A stretch of 54,874 nt of DNA from Halococcus salifodinae DSM 8989 (GTDB lineage: Archaea > Halobacteriota > Halobacteria > Halobacteriales > Halococcaceae). Positions 12,564 to 54,874 of this stretch are shown here, piece after piece. Positions within the stretch are counted from its first letter, which is position 1; each line of letters begins with the position of its first letter. The translations under genes were made by a program, and so were the position numbers. The stretch is from the NCBI RefSeq assembly GCF_000336935.1, contig NZ_AOME01000051.1:334720-389593 (forward strand), in the 5' to 3' direction. The notes below the pieces were generated by a model that searched no databases, had not been told where the DNA came from, and saw nothing but the letters and a program-made list of their open reading frames with translations.

Positions 12564-14374
12564 CACTGTCGTTCGACGGTCGTGCGGACCGGGACGTCGA
12601 TCCCGCCGAACGGGCCGACGACGCCGCGATACACGCGTTCCTCAACTGTTACCTCCGCGAGACTGGCGACTATACGGTCTCCGACGAGTCCGTTGCAGAC
12701 GTCGCGCCCGGTCCCGAGGGCCTGCTTCGGACTCGGCTTCTCGAACAGCGGATCGACGTACTGGCACCCCTCGAGTACCGGTCGCCGACCGAGCGCCATC
12801 TGTTCGACATGCCCGTTCGGTATCGTCTCCCCGATGGGACCGTCTGCCGGGCCGACGCCGCGACCCTCGCATCACTCGTAGTGAAAGACCTCTCGCTGGA
12901 CCGACCAGACGGCTCCGCTCCGGACGAGCTCTTAGAGCGAGTCCTCCGGAGCAAGCGAAACGTCGAGACCTTCGTCCGAGCACGTGAGGGTGACGACGCG
13001 CGACTCTACGGCGAGCGGCTGTCGTTCCGCGACACCGAGCAGGCGCTCGTCTTCGGGCATCACCGTCATCCGACGCCCAAGAGTCGTCAGGGCATCGCTA
13101 CCCGGAACCAAGACACGTTCGCGCCCGAGCTTCGCGGGTCGTTCCCGCTTCACTACTTCCGTGCCGATCCCGACCTCATCACGTCGGACTCGGCGCTCGA
13201 TCGGTGCGCCACGACCTGGGTGAAAGATGCCCTCCGCGACGACGACAGCGTGCCCACGTCGTTTGTCGAGGAACACGTCGACAGCGGAGACGCCTTGTTG
13301 CCGGTCCACCCCTGGCAGGCGGAGTACCTCCTCGACCAGTCACGCGTCCAGCGGCACCTCGGAGACGGAATCGAGCACCTGGGTGCCGTCGGGCAGGAGT
13401 TCTATCCGACGACCTCGGTCCGGACTCTCTACGCTCCCGACGCCCCGTTCATGGTGAAATCGTCGTTGCACGTGAAGATCACCAACTCCGTGCGGACGAA
13501 CAAACGCCCGGAGCTCGACCGAGGCGTGGCCGTCGCGGAACTTCTCGACACCGCGTTCGGCGACGAACTCGCCGATGGGTTCCCGAACTTCGATATCGTT
13601 CGCGACCCCGCCTTCCTCGCGCTCGACATCGGCGACGAACGCGAGTCCGGACTGGAGACGGTTCTCCGGGCCAATCCCTTCCACGGCGATCTGGCAGAGC
13701 GTTCTACACCCCTGGTATCGCTCTGTCAGGACGCTATTGTGGGTCGATCTCGTCTCGGTCGTCTCGTCACGACCATCGCCGAACGCGATGGACGTGATAC
13801 CGAAGCGGTCAGCGAAGAGTGGTTCCGCCGGTATTTGGAAATCGCTATTCGCCCGGTGCTGTGGCTCTATCTCGATCAGGGCGTCGGTGTGGAGGCGCAC
13901 CAACAGAACTCCGTACTCACGCTCGACGAGGCCGGCTACCCGAGCGAGTTCCGCTATCGCGACAACCAGGGGTTCTACTTCCCCGAATCGCAGTATCCCG
14001 AGGTCGACGCCTACCTCCCAGGCGTCGGCGAGCGCGCCGATACCGTCTGTGCCGATTCCATCGCCGACGAGCGGCTCCGCTACTACGTTGTCCTGAACAA
14101 CGCACTCGACGTCGTCAACGCCTTCGGAAGCGCCGGGCTCGTCGACGAGCGGCAGCTGTTGGCGCTCCTCCGCGACGAACTCGAACGGGCTCGCGACCGC
14201 TACGACCGTCCCTCGTCGGACTTTCTCGCCCCGCTGCTGGAGTCGCCGACCGTCCCCTGTAAAGCCAACTTACTGACGCGCTTCCGGGGACTGGACGAAC
14301 TGGAGAACGACCTTGAGAACCAGTCCGTCTACACGGACGTGAAGAACCCCCTCGTCACCGAACTCGATTCATGA
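12560..14374 (+). CDS. iucA: NIS siderophore synthetase, IucA/IucC family (first)
   Basis: A 604-residue ATP-dependent NRPS-independent siderophore synthetase. It adenylates a citrate carboxyl and joins it to a hydroxamate amine. Family signatures are FGHHRHPTPKSRQG near residue 168, LLPVHPWQAEYLL, SLHVKITNSVRTNK, VGVEAHQQNSV and DNQGFYFPES. The start overlaps the ddc stop (ATGA) and the end overlaps the acetyltransferase start in the same way. A longer frame runs upstream in the shadow of ddc and is not used. It corresponds to rhbC. Which citrate end it modifies cannot be read from the sequence. Confidence 0.9.
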   Translation: MTLSFDGRADRDVDPAERADDAAIHAFLNCYLRETGDYTVSDESVADVAPGPEGLLRTRLLEQRIDVLAPLEYRSPTERHLFDMPVRYRLPDGTVCRADAATLASLVVKDLSLDRPDGSAPDELLERVLRSKRNVETFVRAREGDDARLYGERLSFRDTEQALVFGHHRHPTPKSRQGIATRNQDTFAPELRGSFPLHYFRADPDLITSDSALDRCATTWVKDALRDDDSVPTSFVEEHVDSGDALLPVHPWQAEYLLDQSRVQRHLGDGIEHLGAVGQEFYPTTSVRTLYAPDAPFMVKSSLHVKITNSVRTNKRPELDRGVAVAELLDTAFGDELADGFPNFDIVRDPAFLALDIGDERESGLETVLRANPFHGDLAERSTPLVSLCQDAIVGRSRLGRLVTTIAERDGRDTEAVSEEWFRRYLEIAIRPVLWLYLDQGVGVEAHQQNSVLTLDEAGYPSEFRYRDNQGFYFPESQYPEVDAYLPGVGERADTVCADSIADERLRYYVVLNNALDVVNAFGSAGLVDERQLLALLRDELERARDRYDRPSSDFLAPLLESPTVPCKANLLTRFRGLDELENDLENQSVYTDVKNPLVTELDS

Positions 14375-15027
14375 CCGGACCCGACGCAACCATCGCGACT
14401 GATTACGACTACCAGACCTACGACCCGACGATCGAGAAGACCATCTCGCTCCGGCAGGCGACGTTCGACCGCGACCTCGGTCGGCTCCACGCCTGGCTGG
14501 CGAGCGACCACGTGAAACCGTACTGGGAGCTCGATCTGCCGTTGCCGGCGTTCTGCGACCGCCTCACCGGGAAACTCGCGGATGGTCATCTGACGCCCTA
14601 CATCGGGTGTTTGGACCACGTTCCGATGAGCTACTGGGAGTGCTACTGGGCGGCCGAGGACGACGTCGCGAACCACTACGACGCCGAGCCGACCGACCAG
14701 GGCGTCCACCTGCTCATTGGCCCCGAGGAGTATCTGGGACAAGGCTACGCGGTACCCCTGATGCGAGCCGTAGTCGGGATACAGTTCCGCCACCCCGAGA
14801 CCGACTGCGTCGTCGCGGAACCGGACGCTCGCAACGAGCGCGTCATCCACGTCTTCGAGCAGTGCGGGTTCGAACCGCGACGGGAGTTCCGCTTCGACGA
14901 GGCCGAGAAAGACGCCGTACTGATGGTCTGCGAGCGAGAGCGGTTCGAGACCGATGTACTCGTTGACGCGACCGCTGCGCCCCGAACGGGGGCGGACGAC
15001 CGCAGCGAGGTGAGTCCCGATGACTGA
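14371..15027 (+). CDS. iucB: GNAT acetyltransferase of siderophore hydroxamate formation
   Basis: 218 residues. A GNAT domain of the IucB/RhbD kind, which acetylates the hydroxylated amine (here probably N-hydroxy-1,3-diaminopropane) with acetyl-CoA to give the hydroxamate that binds iron. Seen are the N-terminal LRQATFDRDLGRLHAWLASD, SYWECYWAAEDDV (substrate side), GPEEYLGQGYAVPLM (acetyl-CoA pyrophosphate loop) and VFEQCGFEPRREFRF near the end. It overlaps iucA by four bases and iucD by eight. The last 30 residues are a polar tail without structure signals. Confidence 0.85.
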   Translation: MTGPDATIATDYDYQTYDPTIEKTISLRQATFDRDLGRLHAWLASDHVKPYWELDLPLPAFCDRLTGKLADGHLTPYIGCLDHVPMSYWECYWAAEDDVANHYDAEPTDQGVHLLIGPEEYLGQGYAVPLMRAVVGIQFRHPETDCVVAEPDARNERVIHVFEQCGFEPRREFRFDEAEKDAVLMVCERERFETDVLVDATAAPRTGADDRSEVSPDD

Positions 15028-16390
15028 TTCGGACCTCGTACACGATGTCGTCGGCGTCGGACTGGGACCATTCAATCTCGGTCTCGCAGCCCTGTTGGAC
15101 GGCGTCGAGGAATCCGTTGATGCCGCGTTACTCGAACGAGAGCCCGAGTTCAACTGGCACGAAGGAATGCTGCTCGAGGGAACGACCCTCGAGGTGCCGT
15201 TCCTTGCCGACCTCGTGTCGCTCGCGGACCCGACGAACCCACACAGCTATCTCAACTACCTGCGGGAAACGGGGCGCATCTACGAGTTTTACTTTTACGA
15301 GACGTTCCAGACGCTCCGTCGCGAGTACAACGACTACCTGCAGTGGGTCTGCGAGAACGTTGACAGCTGTCGGTTCAGTCGCGAGGTGACCGAACTCCGG
15401 TGGGACGAGGAGCGCGATCACTACGTCGTCACGGCCCGCCATCCTGAGACCGGCGACCGGTTCGAGTACCGCGGCGAAAACGTCGCGCTCGGGATCGGAT
15501 CGCGGCCTCAGATTCCGGAATCGCTCCAGGGCCATCCGGACGAGGACGTCTTCCACACGGCACGCTACCGCGACAACCGCGAGCGTGTACTGAATGCCGA
15601 GTCGGTCACCGTCGTAGGATCAGGCCAGAGCGCCGCCGAAGTCTTCCAGGACCTGCTGGAACGACAGCCAGAGGGACGGTATCGACTGGACTGGTTGACG
15701 CGCTCGGACGGCTTCTTTCCGATGGAATACTCCAAGCTTGGGCTGCAACACTTCACGCCCGAGTACGAGCAGTACGTCTACGACCTTCCTCAAGGAGTGA
15801 AAGACGACCTCATTCCGAACCAGGAGCTGCTCTACAAGGGCGTCGACCCGGAAACGAGCGCGGAAATCTACGACCTCCTCTATCGGCGCTCGATCGGCGA
15901 CTGTGATCCCGACGTCGGTCTCTTCGCGATGACCGAGGTGCGGGACATCGCCGACACGGGTGAGGCATACGCCCTCGACTGCCACCAGTGGCAGGCTGAG
16001 GAGTCGTTCGTCCACGAAAGCGAGGTCGTCGTCCTCGGGACCGGATACGAGCGCCCGATTCCGGGCTTCCTCGAACCGCTCAAGGAAGCGATCAACTGGG
16101 ACGACAAGGGCCGATTCGAGGTGACGCCGAACCATCACCTCGACATCGACGTGACGGGCGACGTGTTCCTCCAGAACGCCGAACTCCACACCCACGGGGT
16201 CGGTGTTCCCGACCTCGGGCTCGGTTGCTATCGGAACACGAAGTTCGTCAATCGCCTCGTCGGCCGGGAAGCCTACCCCGAAGACAACGACACAGTCTAT
16301 CAGGACTTCGCAGTGGAGCAGTTCGTCGAACGCGCACCGTCCGCCTCCCGGCAGCCCGGGAGCGAAGCAACTCCCACCAACGACAATTAA
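15020..16390 (+). CDS. iucD: Diamine/lysine/ornithine N-monooxygenase
   Basis: A 456-residue flavin monooxygenase that N-hydroxylates the diamine, with FAD, NADPH and O2, as the committed step to the hydroxamate. The FAD motif GVGLGPFNLGLAAL is at about residues 12-25, the NADPH motif VVGSGQSAAEVF near residue 197 and the family's third motif GTGYERP near residue 337. DWLTRSDGFFPMEYSKLGLQ is the typical PvdA/IucD substrate and NADPH segment. It overlaps the acetyltransferase by eight bases. It corresponds to rhbE. Confidence 0.92.
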   Translation: MTDSDLVHDVVGVGLGPFNLGLAALLDGVEESVDAALLEREPEFNWHEGMLLEGTTLEVPFLADLVSLADPTNPHSYLNYLRETGRIYEFYFYETFQTLRREYNDYLQWVCENVDSCRFSREVTELRWDEERDHYVVTARHPETGDRFEYRGENVALGIGSRPQIPESLQGHPDEDVFHTARYRDNRERVLNAESVTVVGSGQSAAEVFQDLLERQPEGRYRLDWLTRSDGFFPMEYSKLGLQHFTPEYEQYVYDLPQGVKDDLIPNQELLYKGVDPETSAEIYDLLYRRSIGDCDPDVGLFAMTEVRDIADTGEAYALDCHQWQAEESFVHESEVVVLGTGYERPIPGFLEPLKEAINWDDKGRFEVTPNHHLDIDVTGDVFLQNAELHTHGVGVPDLGLGCYRNTKFVNRLVGREAYPEDNDTVYQDFAVEQFVERAPSASRQPGSEATPTNDN

Positions 16391-52963: not shown

Positions 52964-53037
52964 GTCCGGGTTGGGGTAGTGGTCATCCTTCAGCCTTGTG
53001 GAGGCTGAGACGCGGGTTCGATTCTCGCACCCGGACC
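52964..53037 (+). tRNA. tRNA-His (anticodon GTG)
   Basis: A full cloverleaf folds: acceptor arms GTCCGGG (52964-52970) and CCCGGAC (53030-53036), anticodon arm CAGCC/GGCTG with loop TTGTGGA and anticodon GTG at 52998-53000, and T arm GCGGG-TTCGATT-CTCGC. Position 73 is C as in His tRNAs. The base before the acceptor stem is T, so the G-1 typical of tRNA-His is not encoded here and CCA is not encoded either. A copy of its 3' end lies at 53971-53996. Confidence 0.95.
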
Positions 53038-53038
53038 A
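53014..53038 (+). repeat. attachment-site-like repeat, tRNA end (attL)
   Basis: The T-arm and acceptor 3' strand of tRNA-His. It pairs with the repeat at 53971-53996; the core TCGATTCTCGCA-CCGGAC differs at one base. Such duplications mark where a mobile element integrated into a tRNA gene. Confidence 0.55.
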
Positions 53039-53145
53039 TGACAATTCTCTTTCGCTAATTCGACCAACGCACTCGTACAGTACACCCGCCAAATCCACCG
53101 ACTCGACGCCGTAGGTTCATCAACGGTGACACAGCAGCTTCGACC

Positions 53146-53943
53146 ATGTCGTTCGAGTGTCCGACGTGCAGATCTGCGTTCGACACCAGATGAGGGCTTG
53201 GAGTCCATCACAGTCTCGTTCACGACGAACGACTACCGAACAGAGAGTGTGCGAACTGTAGCGGCGAGTTTTACTGCTCGTATGCGAAGAAGTACTGTTC
53301 CGTGGAGTGTCGTTGTGAGGGGGGTATCGTTCGAGGATGAAGCAAATCCGAACTATCGAGGGGAAAAGAGGATGCAGAATGTCGGATCTGTGGAACCGAG
53401 TTCGAATATTATTTTTCAACGAAGAAAGGTCTGTACTGTCCGGATTGCGTCGCAGACGAATCGTGGCGGATAACGCCCGATATCAAAGGACTCAGCCATC
53501 CATTGTGGGGCGGTGGAAAGATGGAACGAGAGTGTGCGATCTGCGACACGGCTATCGAACGGTATCCGAGCAACTTCACTGGCGACGTGGCTGTATGTAG
53601 CGAGGACTGCCGTCGGACGTGGTTATCGGCGGCTTTCACCGGCTCTGATCATCCGAACTGGAAAGGAGGCGGTAACGAATCGTACGGGACTGGCTGGCGA
53701 AACGTTCGAAAGCGAGCGCTGAAACGCGATGGACACGCGTGCGTTCGGTGTTCGAAAACGAAACACGAACTCGGTCACAATCCGGACGTCCATCACATCG
53801 TGCCCGTTCGATCGTTCGATGAATCGGAAGATCACAAAAAAAGGACACGCACTGTCTCGAAAACGTGGCTTCACTCTGTATCGCGTGTCATCGGACGGCC
53901 GATTTCGGGAAGATCTCGAAGGGATCGCTTTGGACATTGATTG
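53146..53943 (+). pseudogene. Zinc-finger HNH endonuclease gene, decayed
   Basis: Starting at ATG 53146 (MSFECPTCRSAFDT), the frame is stopped by TGA at 53191, then continues with CANCSGEFYCSYAKKYCS. A shift near 53320 and one back near 53362 follow, then CRICGTEF, CPDC, then CAICDTAIERYPSNFTGDVA (an array of treble-clef or C4 fingers) and finally HNH motifs: HACVRCSKTKHEL, VHHIVPVRSF. At the A7 run 53836-53842 another shift moves the last part, CLENVASLCIACHRTADFGK, to a different frame. The full text is typical of haloarchaeal HNH proteins with several zinc fingers. Four lesions make it inactive, unless the runs are sequencing errors. Confidence 0.75.
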
Positions 53944-53970
53944 CTGAGTGATGTTACGATGTCAAAACAT

Positions 53971-53996
53971 AGGCTCGATTCTCGCATCCGGACTCC
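53971..53996 (+). repeat. attachment-site-like repeat, distal copy (attR)
   Basis: Starts AGGCTCGATTCTCGCATCCG and matches the 3' end of tRNA-His (53014-53038), about 960 bases upstream. It lacks the rest of the tRNA. It is the expected right boundary of an element that used the tRNA 3' end as target. Confidence 0.55.
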
Positions 53997-53999
53997 ATC

Positions 54000-54495
54000 C
54001 CCTTTGCGGCCACTTCCTGACTCGATAGCGGAGAGGAAAACCATCCTGCGAGACGACGGGAGGTGATCTTTCAGAGTTCTGAAAACCACCCGAACGGTGA
54101 AACCCAGTTACCCCGCACTACTGTGGCTCTGATGCCTTCAACGGACGCTATATTGATGTCCTTAGAGCGCCTATATGTGTCAGAGGTGCGGCCTTCAGTT
54201 CCGCGTGGCATCACCCAAGAGGCCGTACCTCGTCCATTTCGACCTTGAATTCGACAGTTCTCCTTGGGTGGCGGTGACAAACTTGGATACAGGACTGTGT
54301 GTCGCAGATCGGTCGATTGAGTCCCTGTTCTGCAACGACCCACGTTCATCTGGCCAGTGGGTGTGATACCAGCGGAGGGGGAGGGTGGACCAACGGGGCG
54401 GCGGTTACAAGGTGATGCCACGCAACGGACCGCCCATCGTTGGTCCTATGAGACAATCCATGGTACGTTGTAATAAGTTTTGTGCGTGCTTTATA
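54000..54495. other. Gap without a recognisable gene
   Basis: About 500 bases between the attR-like repeat and the IS. Frames exist on both strands (for example one starting MCQRCGLQFRVAS at 54175), but none has convincing codon bias or a conserved motif. Probably degenerate accessory DNA. Confidence 0.45.
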
Positions 54496-54874
54496 GGTAG
54501 TGTTCAGATACGGCTGAAAAGTGAGGCGCGGTGTGATTTCAGTGCTCTATGCGGAAATCCACCCGCCTCAACGGTTGTTTGGACGAGATCGAGTGAGGTT
54601 TTGTGGAGCGAGAAGCAACGCCGCGACTGTTGATGAAGCTCGGAATCCAGTTGCATCTCGCCGGTCTTTCGCTTTCGAACACTGTCTCGATTCTCGACGT
54701 ATTCGGCGTTAGTCGCGCTCGATCCACGATCAATAACTGGGTTCACGAGGCGGAGTTACAGCCAGAGTCCGGCAAGACGCCGGAGCACGTCGCGGTCGAC
54801 GAGACCGTGATCCGACTCGACGACGAGCGCTACTGGCTGTACGCCGTGGTTGATCCCGAGTCGAACGAACTGCT
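54496..54874 (+). mobile_element. IS6-type insertion sequence, 5' part
   Basis: Left end of an element of the same kind as at 1-392. The terminal repeat GGTAGTGTTCAGATA is at 54496-54510. The transposase N-terminus follows, and the window ends inside the catalytic domain. Bases 54801-54874 are identical to bases 1-74. Joined to the first fragment it would make an IS of about 700 bases. Confidence 0.88.
54549..54874 (+). pseudogene. IS6 transposase, N-terminal part, with an early stop
   Basis: From ATG 54549 the frame reads MRKSTRLNGCLDEIE and then TGA at 54594-54596. The same frame continues GFVEREATPRLLMKLGIQLH, the standard N-terminal helix-turn-helix of this family. Further on, at the window end, it has the first catalytic Asp in EHVAVDETVIRLDDERYW. 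Members of the family usually have a Leu or another sense codon at the TGA. A GTG at 54603 could start a shortened protein lacking about 18 residues. The gene runs off the window. Confidence 0.7.

Follow-up and report, generated by a model that had tools for sequence, protein, structure and literature searches.

The interval behind the tRNA-His gene of Halococcus salifodinae DSM 8989 is interpreted here, at a little better than an even chance, as the remains of a free-standing HNH nuclease gene of the homing type, which was parked at this tRNA as a single-gene insertion (53037-53993) and has since decayed. According to this interpretation, tRNA-His would be the target of the nuclease. All positions refer to the window, which is the whole stretch of 54,874 nucleotides that was analysed. 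The features concerned are as follows.

52965-53037, forward strand: intact tRNA-His (anticodon GTG), the putative target locus (ARAGORN; Rfam RF00005, 52.9 bits)
53015-53036, forward strand: proximal copy of the direct repeat, which is the tRNA 3' end from the T-loop to base 73 (sequence comparison)
53037-53145, forward strand: spacer between the tRNA and the HNH relic; its first part (53037-53100) is like the sequence of genome G002 after its second tRNA-end copy
53146-53951, forward strand: HNH nuclease pseudogene, disrupted by two TGA stops and one frameshift; it has an N-terminal C2H2-like finger, more Cys pairs and an HNH at the C-terminus
53972-53993, forward strand: distal copy of the tRNA-His 3' end, 20/22 identical
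53972-54493, forward strand: distal copy and flank, defining the empty site (81.5% identity to genome G008 over 530 aligned bases)

The last 22 bases of tRNA-His recur in the distal copy with 2 mismatches, and the spacing between the two ends is 957 bp, in agreement with the initial annotation, which had placed the second copy about 0.95 kb after the tRNA. The repeat core given there, TCGATTCTCGCA-CCGGAC, is also present, and the common stretch is slightly longer, extending from GGTTC in the T-loop to base 73. On both strands of the 54.9 kb window, these two copies are the only matches at up to 3 mismatches, and 100 shuffles yielded 0 chance matches. The junction of the empty site described below coincides exactly with the repeat. 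On these two grounds the idea that the repeats are only chance matches, which had been raised as a way of refuting the initial annotation, was rejected, and the probability of a chance repeat beside an unrelated pseudogene is regarded as practically nil.

Between the two copies, nothing was found besides the HNH relic, so that the earlier description of a single broken HNH gene is correct. Compared with the intact HNH protein of genome G356, the relic shows 60.5% identity over 228 residues with two in-frame TGA stops; the frameshift lies at an A-run, and the C-terminal part resumes in another frame with 74% identity over 35 residues. In the search of Halobacteria at E <= 1e-8, the relic is the sole match in its own genome. 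As the copy in the window is itself broken, the domain assignment is taken from intact relatives, which match the HNH profile PF01844 at 25.0 and 23.8 bits (cut-off 21.4). The N-terminal C2H2-like finger of these relatives scores below the profile cut-off, and additional Cys pairs are conserved. An AlphaFold model from three sequences reached a mean pLDDT of 51. The best profile matches of the intact relatives are phage HNH families, for example phrog_1271 (E about 1e-34), and 30 records of a phage collection contain a related HNH, all below 60% identity; most of these are haloviruses and some are not. Matches to known nuclease systems are confined to the nuclease domain. With the IscB profile of NCBIfam, 24.2, 23.6 and 31.4 bits were obtained against a cut-off of 175, from the HNH part only. 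This domain alone is shared with the RNA-guided IscB nucleases, the rest of IscB being unmatched and the scores far below the family cut-off. Similarly, profiles of Zorya type II ZorE and other defence proteins match the HNH domain only (NCBIfam, 16-20 bits against 600; PADLOC, up to 22.5).

G008 is the sister of the window's species (support 0.992 in a small tree) and is 93.5% identical to the window over the 1048 bases up to the tRNA. In this genome tRNA-His, present with one tRNA end only, runs directly into the sequence that comes after the distal copy in the window, and the alignment begins inside the tRNA. This is the empty site for which the initial annotation had proposed to search among relatives, and the other outcome considered there, a spacer conserved in all relatives, was not seen. 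Because G008 has an empty site, the interval is, judging from this alignment, an insertion; the segment from the tRNA end to the end of the distal copy was either gained by insertion in one lineage or cleanly deleted in the other. In G002, the species branching off next in the same genus, tRNA-His is followed by a 107-bp unit and a second, exact copy of the tRNA end. About 64 bp after this second end are like the spacer that precedes the HNH relic in the window (77% over 86 aligned bases, including the tRNA end). This similarity suggests that the HNH insertion predates the three species and was lost in G008.

Several observations were made in the surroundings of this tRNA. A GC-rich block at 54376-54487 (GAGGGGGAGGGTGGACCAACGGGGCGG...) is also found near tRNA-His in G002 (92% identity) and G006 (85%), falls within the G008 match and has no match in Rfam. 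At the right edge of the window lies a transposase-like gene (54603-54874) with a weak IS240-type DDE match, and the same observation covers 2323-2847 and 14100-15254 of locus L032. The window ends at an N in the contig that is flanked by repeated sequence on either side, an arrangement resembling a scaffolding artefact; comparable doubled ends with N occur close to the contig end.

The intact HNH protein of G016 was used as the query against 391 Halobacteria genomes, and 237 of them contain a relative at E <= 1e-8. The loci examined are the complete set of 70 places listed down to E = 2e-76, without counting the window, and 20 of the weaker listed places. Group 1 comprises 72 loci (the 70 and two partial matches), which were found by protein similarity alone. 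The HNH gene was located 3' of tRNA-His in all 72 (30/30 and 42/42), on either strand and at a gap of about 60-180 bp. Halomicrobium katesii, Haloarcula vallismortis and Halorientalis salina are named carriers at tRNA-His. The address count uses these 72 loci; the other counts use a set of 74, to which the window and G035 were added and from which L082-L084 were excluded as duplicates of L056, L079 and L110. The gene is on the opposite strand in 13 of the 74 loci. An intact HNH gene beside tRNA-His, another of the checks proposed earlier, has thus been found, with 64 of the 74 copies intact.

More distant relatives occupy another address. In 17 of 18 such places, the gene is situated just 5' of a tRNA called Gln(TTG) or Glu(TTC) by ARAGORN, one "Stop(TTA)" call among the 17 being presumably a miscall; the remaining place is behind tRNA-Glu(CTC), on the opposite strand. 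A second HNH subfamily (L125, L127-L129, L131-L143), about 45% identical to the first, can be recognized 5' of tRNA-Gln/Glu in the same orientation as the tRNA. The spacer word AAAAGTAACACTATTGTG, possibly the promoter region of the tRNA, recurs in several of the loci inspected. Since group 2 is found 5' of a different tRNA, the subfamilies differ in their placement rule, which counts against the homing interpretation. Of 13 even weaker relatives from near genomes, 9 have a tRNA inside the 1.5 kb that was fetched and 4 have none, one of these 4 being truncated by a contig end. Scans of genome contigs and of viral contigs with one protein gave 3 loci each.

Among 33 pairs with at least 80% identity, dN/dS ranges from 0.06 to 0.26. 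These values, together with the proportion of intact copies, indicate that the HNH gene is normally kept under purifying selection and that the decayed copy of the window is an exception. Strong purifying selection may equally be compatible with a host function. A resident host gene, serving housekeeping or defence (e.g. against incoming tRNA-targeting elements), could have been inherited vertically and died in the lineage of the window; the low dN/dS, the many intact copies and the near-universal address at tRNA-His all fit such a gene. Phylogenetic tests also leave room for it, as the clades of the families are not clearly broken. When the copies of one family were forced into a single clade, the AU test rejected neither f1 (p-AU 0.635) nor f5 (0.289) and rejected f4 only at 0.037; opposite-strand copies placed as one clade (p-AU 0.708) were compatible with one lineage. 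The carriers are mostly f4 genomes, where the HNH gene could be old and vertically inherited.

Other observations speak against a resident host gene, which is considered unlikely overall. Intact, relic and absent states are found inside single genera, and 3 of the 22 genomes without a full copy retain remnants (G143 and G291) or a trace (G126). The empty site of G008 is clean. Both orientations of the HNH gene occur at the one site, within each of the families f1, f4, f5, f7 and f17, for which vertical descent would offer no easy explanation. Furthermore, the best profiles are those of phage HNH proteins, and the defence matches are weak and limited to the nuclease domain. At 9 of the 74 loci, as noted for some f4 genomes, the HNH gene separates tRNA-His from a cinA-like gene, which directly follows tRNA-His in G003 and G009. 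In genus g22, a tRNA allele linked to the presence of the HNH gene was looked for and not seen: each of the two alleles is found in carriers as well as in genomes lacking the gene. Because the AU tests mostly fail to reject single clades, horizontal transfer between families is graded as plausible at most and weakly supported.

A displaced tRNA 3' end is also a feature of elements integrated by tyrosine recombinases. In archaea, these elements resemble the locus in the window by the restored tRNA, the copy of the 3' end on the far side and the existence of empty sites; unlike the window, they carry an integrase, and at tRNA-His their copies are 43-44 nt long and start in the anticodon arm. The repeat of the window, from the T-loop to the 3' end, could thus represent attL and attR of a minimal element moved in trans, and archaeal integrases use tRNA 3' ends with varied 5' limits, according to a published account (PMC8371274). 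This origin is nevertheless judged very improbable. No PF00589 integrase was found near tRNA-His in G000, G035 or G078, the three genomes with a clear distal copy behind the HNH gene, none lies in the interval, and the nearest one on the contig of the window is about 257 kb away. Integrase elements that do occur at tRNA-His served as a positive control. In G058, the tRNA is at C6:91355, a 43-nt copy from tRNA position 31 is at C6:133313, and the integrase ends 0.5 kb before the copy. This would make the G058 element about 42 kb long. A copy of this kind also exists in G241 (C3), with an integrase 0.5 kb away, and in G011 (C68, C126) integrases lie within 1 kb of both tRNA-His and a 44-nt copy; G017 (C32) has a 44-nt tRNA-His copy and no integrase listed on that contig. 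Integrase scars at tRNA-His thus have another border than the repeat of the window.

The distribution of distal copies is also at variance with a recombinase-moved element. When the 450 bp after each HNH gene were searched at the 74 loci, a clear second tRNA-His end was detected in only 3, namely in the window (957 bp), in G035 (994 bp) and, on the opposite strand, in G078 (1036 bp); all three copies begin at the T-loop. Two more loci (L072 and L081; G197 and G382) have weak second ends with 5-6 mismatches. With 71 of the 74 loci having no clear second copy, the distal repeat was rejected as a general mark of HNH insertion, and its rarity also counts against the homing interpretation. In addition, the HNH family also occurs 5' of tRNA-Gln. 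An integrase scar was accordingly discarded as the main reading, as no integrase is near and the true integrase copies have other borders. The initial annotation had compared the two copies to attL and attR and had regarded the locus as the probable remnant of a tRNA-targeting element or as a very small element mobilised by the nuclease. The direct repeat and the empty site are borne out and the integrase element is not; of the two origins, the one by the nuclease is strengthened by the fixed address of the family.

Displaced ends of tRNA-His also exist in another context. With a strict pattern requiring two tRNA-His ends at a distance of 95-125 bases, tandem units were detected behind tRNA-His in at least 76 of 391 genomes, and in 0 with the reversed pattern as control. 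The 76 genomes are a lower bound, because the strict tRNA-end pattern misses many f4 tRNAs. The units are hairpins of 95-140 bp, in each of which the tRNA 3' end, from the T-loop to base 73, is exactly reproduced as the last segment (e.g. L168, L175, L178, L196); they also hold this end as an imperfect inverted copy, and up to four occur in a row (G241). In G241 a unit array also follows the integrase-type tRNA-His copy. Of 58 distinct units folded as single sequences, 56 formed a hairpin at the 5' end, and 57 had no fewer than 10 bases of the closing tRNA copy paired to the imperfect inverted copy within the unit. The median z of the folds is -2.9 relative to 40 shuffles. RNAalifold gave no useful consensus on a MAFFT alignment of the units, presumably because the alignment breaks the hairpins, and Rfam contains no family for the units of the four loci searched. 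In the tRNA-Gln region (L129, L131, L133, L138), exact tRNA-Gln 3' ends are 102 bp apart with similar hairpin sequence between them. Because of these like copies and hairpins, the units are probably not confined to tRNA-His.

These units offer another source for the repeat alone, one that is compatible with the homing interpretation: the HNH gene may have landed in or beside a unit array, the distal copy being the end of a unit. The chance of this is put at slightly less than even. The units are frequent and include G002 of the same genus, where the second copy is followed by the spacer-like 64 bp, and all unit copies start at the same T-loop base as the distal copy of the window. The 35 bases that precede the distal copy in G078 correspond to the second hairpin of a unit (0/200 shuffles as good), and because of this match the HNH gene of G078 is, by sequence comparison, inside a hairpin unit. 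Less favourable are the flanks in the window, where the 90 bases before the distal copy hold no significant unit remains (p=0.93) and the sequence after it shows weak similarity (p=0.055). The corresponding values in G035 are p=0.18 and p=0.04. Moreover, among the genomes with a group-1 HNH, 21 have a tRNA end that the strict pattern can match, and 0 of these 21 have units, compared with 76 of the other 370, a difference that is uncorrected for kinship. A bolder proposal would unite both components in a two-part system at the tRNA end. The hairpin units would be a new class of repeats or small RNAs, the zinc-finger HNH protein would read the same tRNA end, and the two would be mutually exclusive, with units carrying the nuclease target or the nuclease gene inserting into units (in forward orientation at the tRNA end and in reverse orientation at the inverted copy within the unit); the window would then be a late, decayed stage. 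This proposal is speculative and is considered quite improbable.

The homing interpretation, in which the gene would be a selfish one directed at tRNA genes, remains the preferred one, and its steps can be outlined by analogy. In a cell without the gene, the zinc-finger part would recognise the conserved tRNA-His locus, where the HNH domain would cut. Repair from a gene-bearing donor would copy the gene in beside the tRNA, leaving the tRNA undamaged. Such copies would then decay, as in the window, and finally be lost; recombination between the 22-bp copies of the tRNA end could delete the insertion cleanly and produce the state of G008. The data show the insertion with its empty site, the fixed address of the family, purifying selection where the gene is intact and the decay of the copy in the window; the recognition and cutting of the tRNA locus, the repair-driven spread and the way in which copies are lost are inferred. 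The distal copy could be the far side of the cut target that remained after the tRNA end of the donor had been introduced, or it could be where a hairpin unit ends, and the two origins appear about equally probable.

The closest parallel is provided by the seg and mob homing endonucleases of T-even phages, which are likewise lone nuclease genes in intergenic positions beside conserved genes. SegB, whose gene is flanked by tRNA genes, acts on the intergenic DNA of this tRNA region, and the mob genes encode HNH nucleases (PMC2988022). Unlike SegB, a phage-borne GIY-YIG enzyme, the family described here is chromosomal, archaeal and tied to one tRNA gene, and consists of HNH proteins with zinc-finger-like Cys pairs, whose cutting is assumed by analogy. 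The HNH or "five-Zn-finger" proteins of haloviruses are homologous over most of their length, with 27-43% identity among the 15 records listed; these relatives are located in virus genomes. A literature search, which covered few subscription papers, returned no description of a tRNA-adjacent HNH family or of the hairpin units.

These findings call for caution in the interpretation of displaced tRNA ends, which need not be scars of integrases, because copies are common in Halobacteria in hairpin units that contain no element. If the homing interpretation is true, Halobacteria would possess a large chromosomal family of archaeal HNH nucleases addressed to single tRNA genes, and the evolution of target choice among tRNA-His, tRNA-Gln and others would become directly testable.
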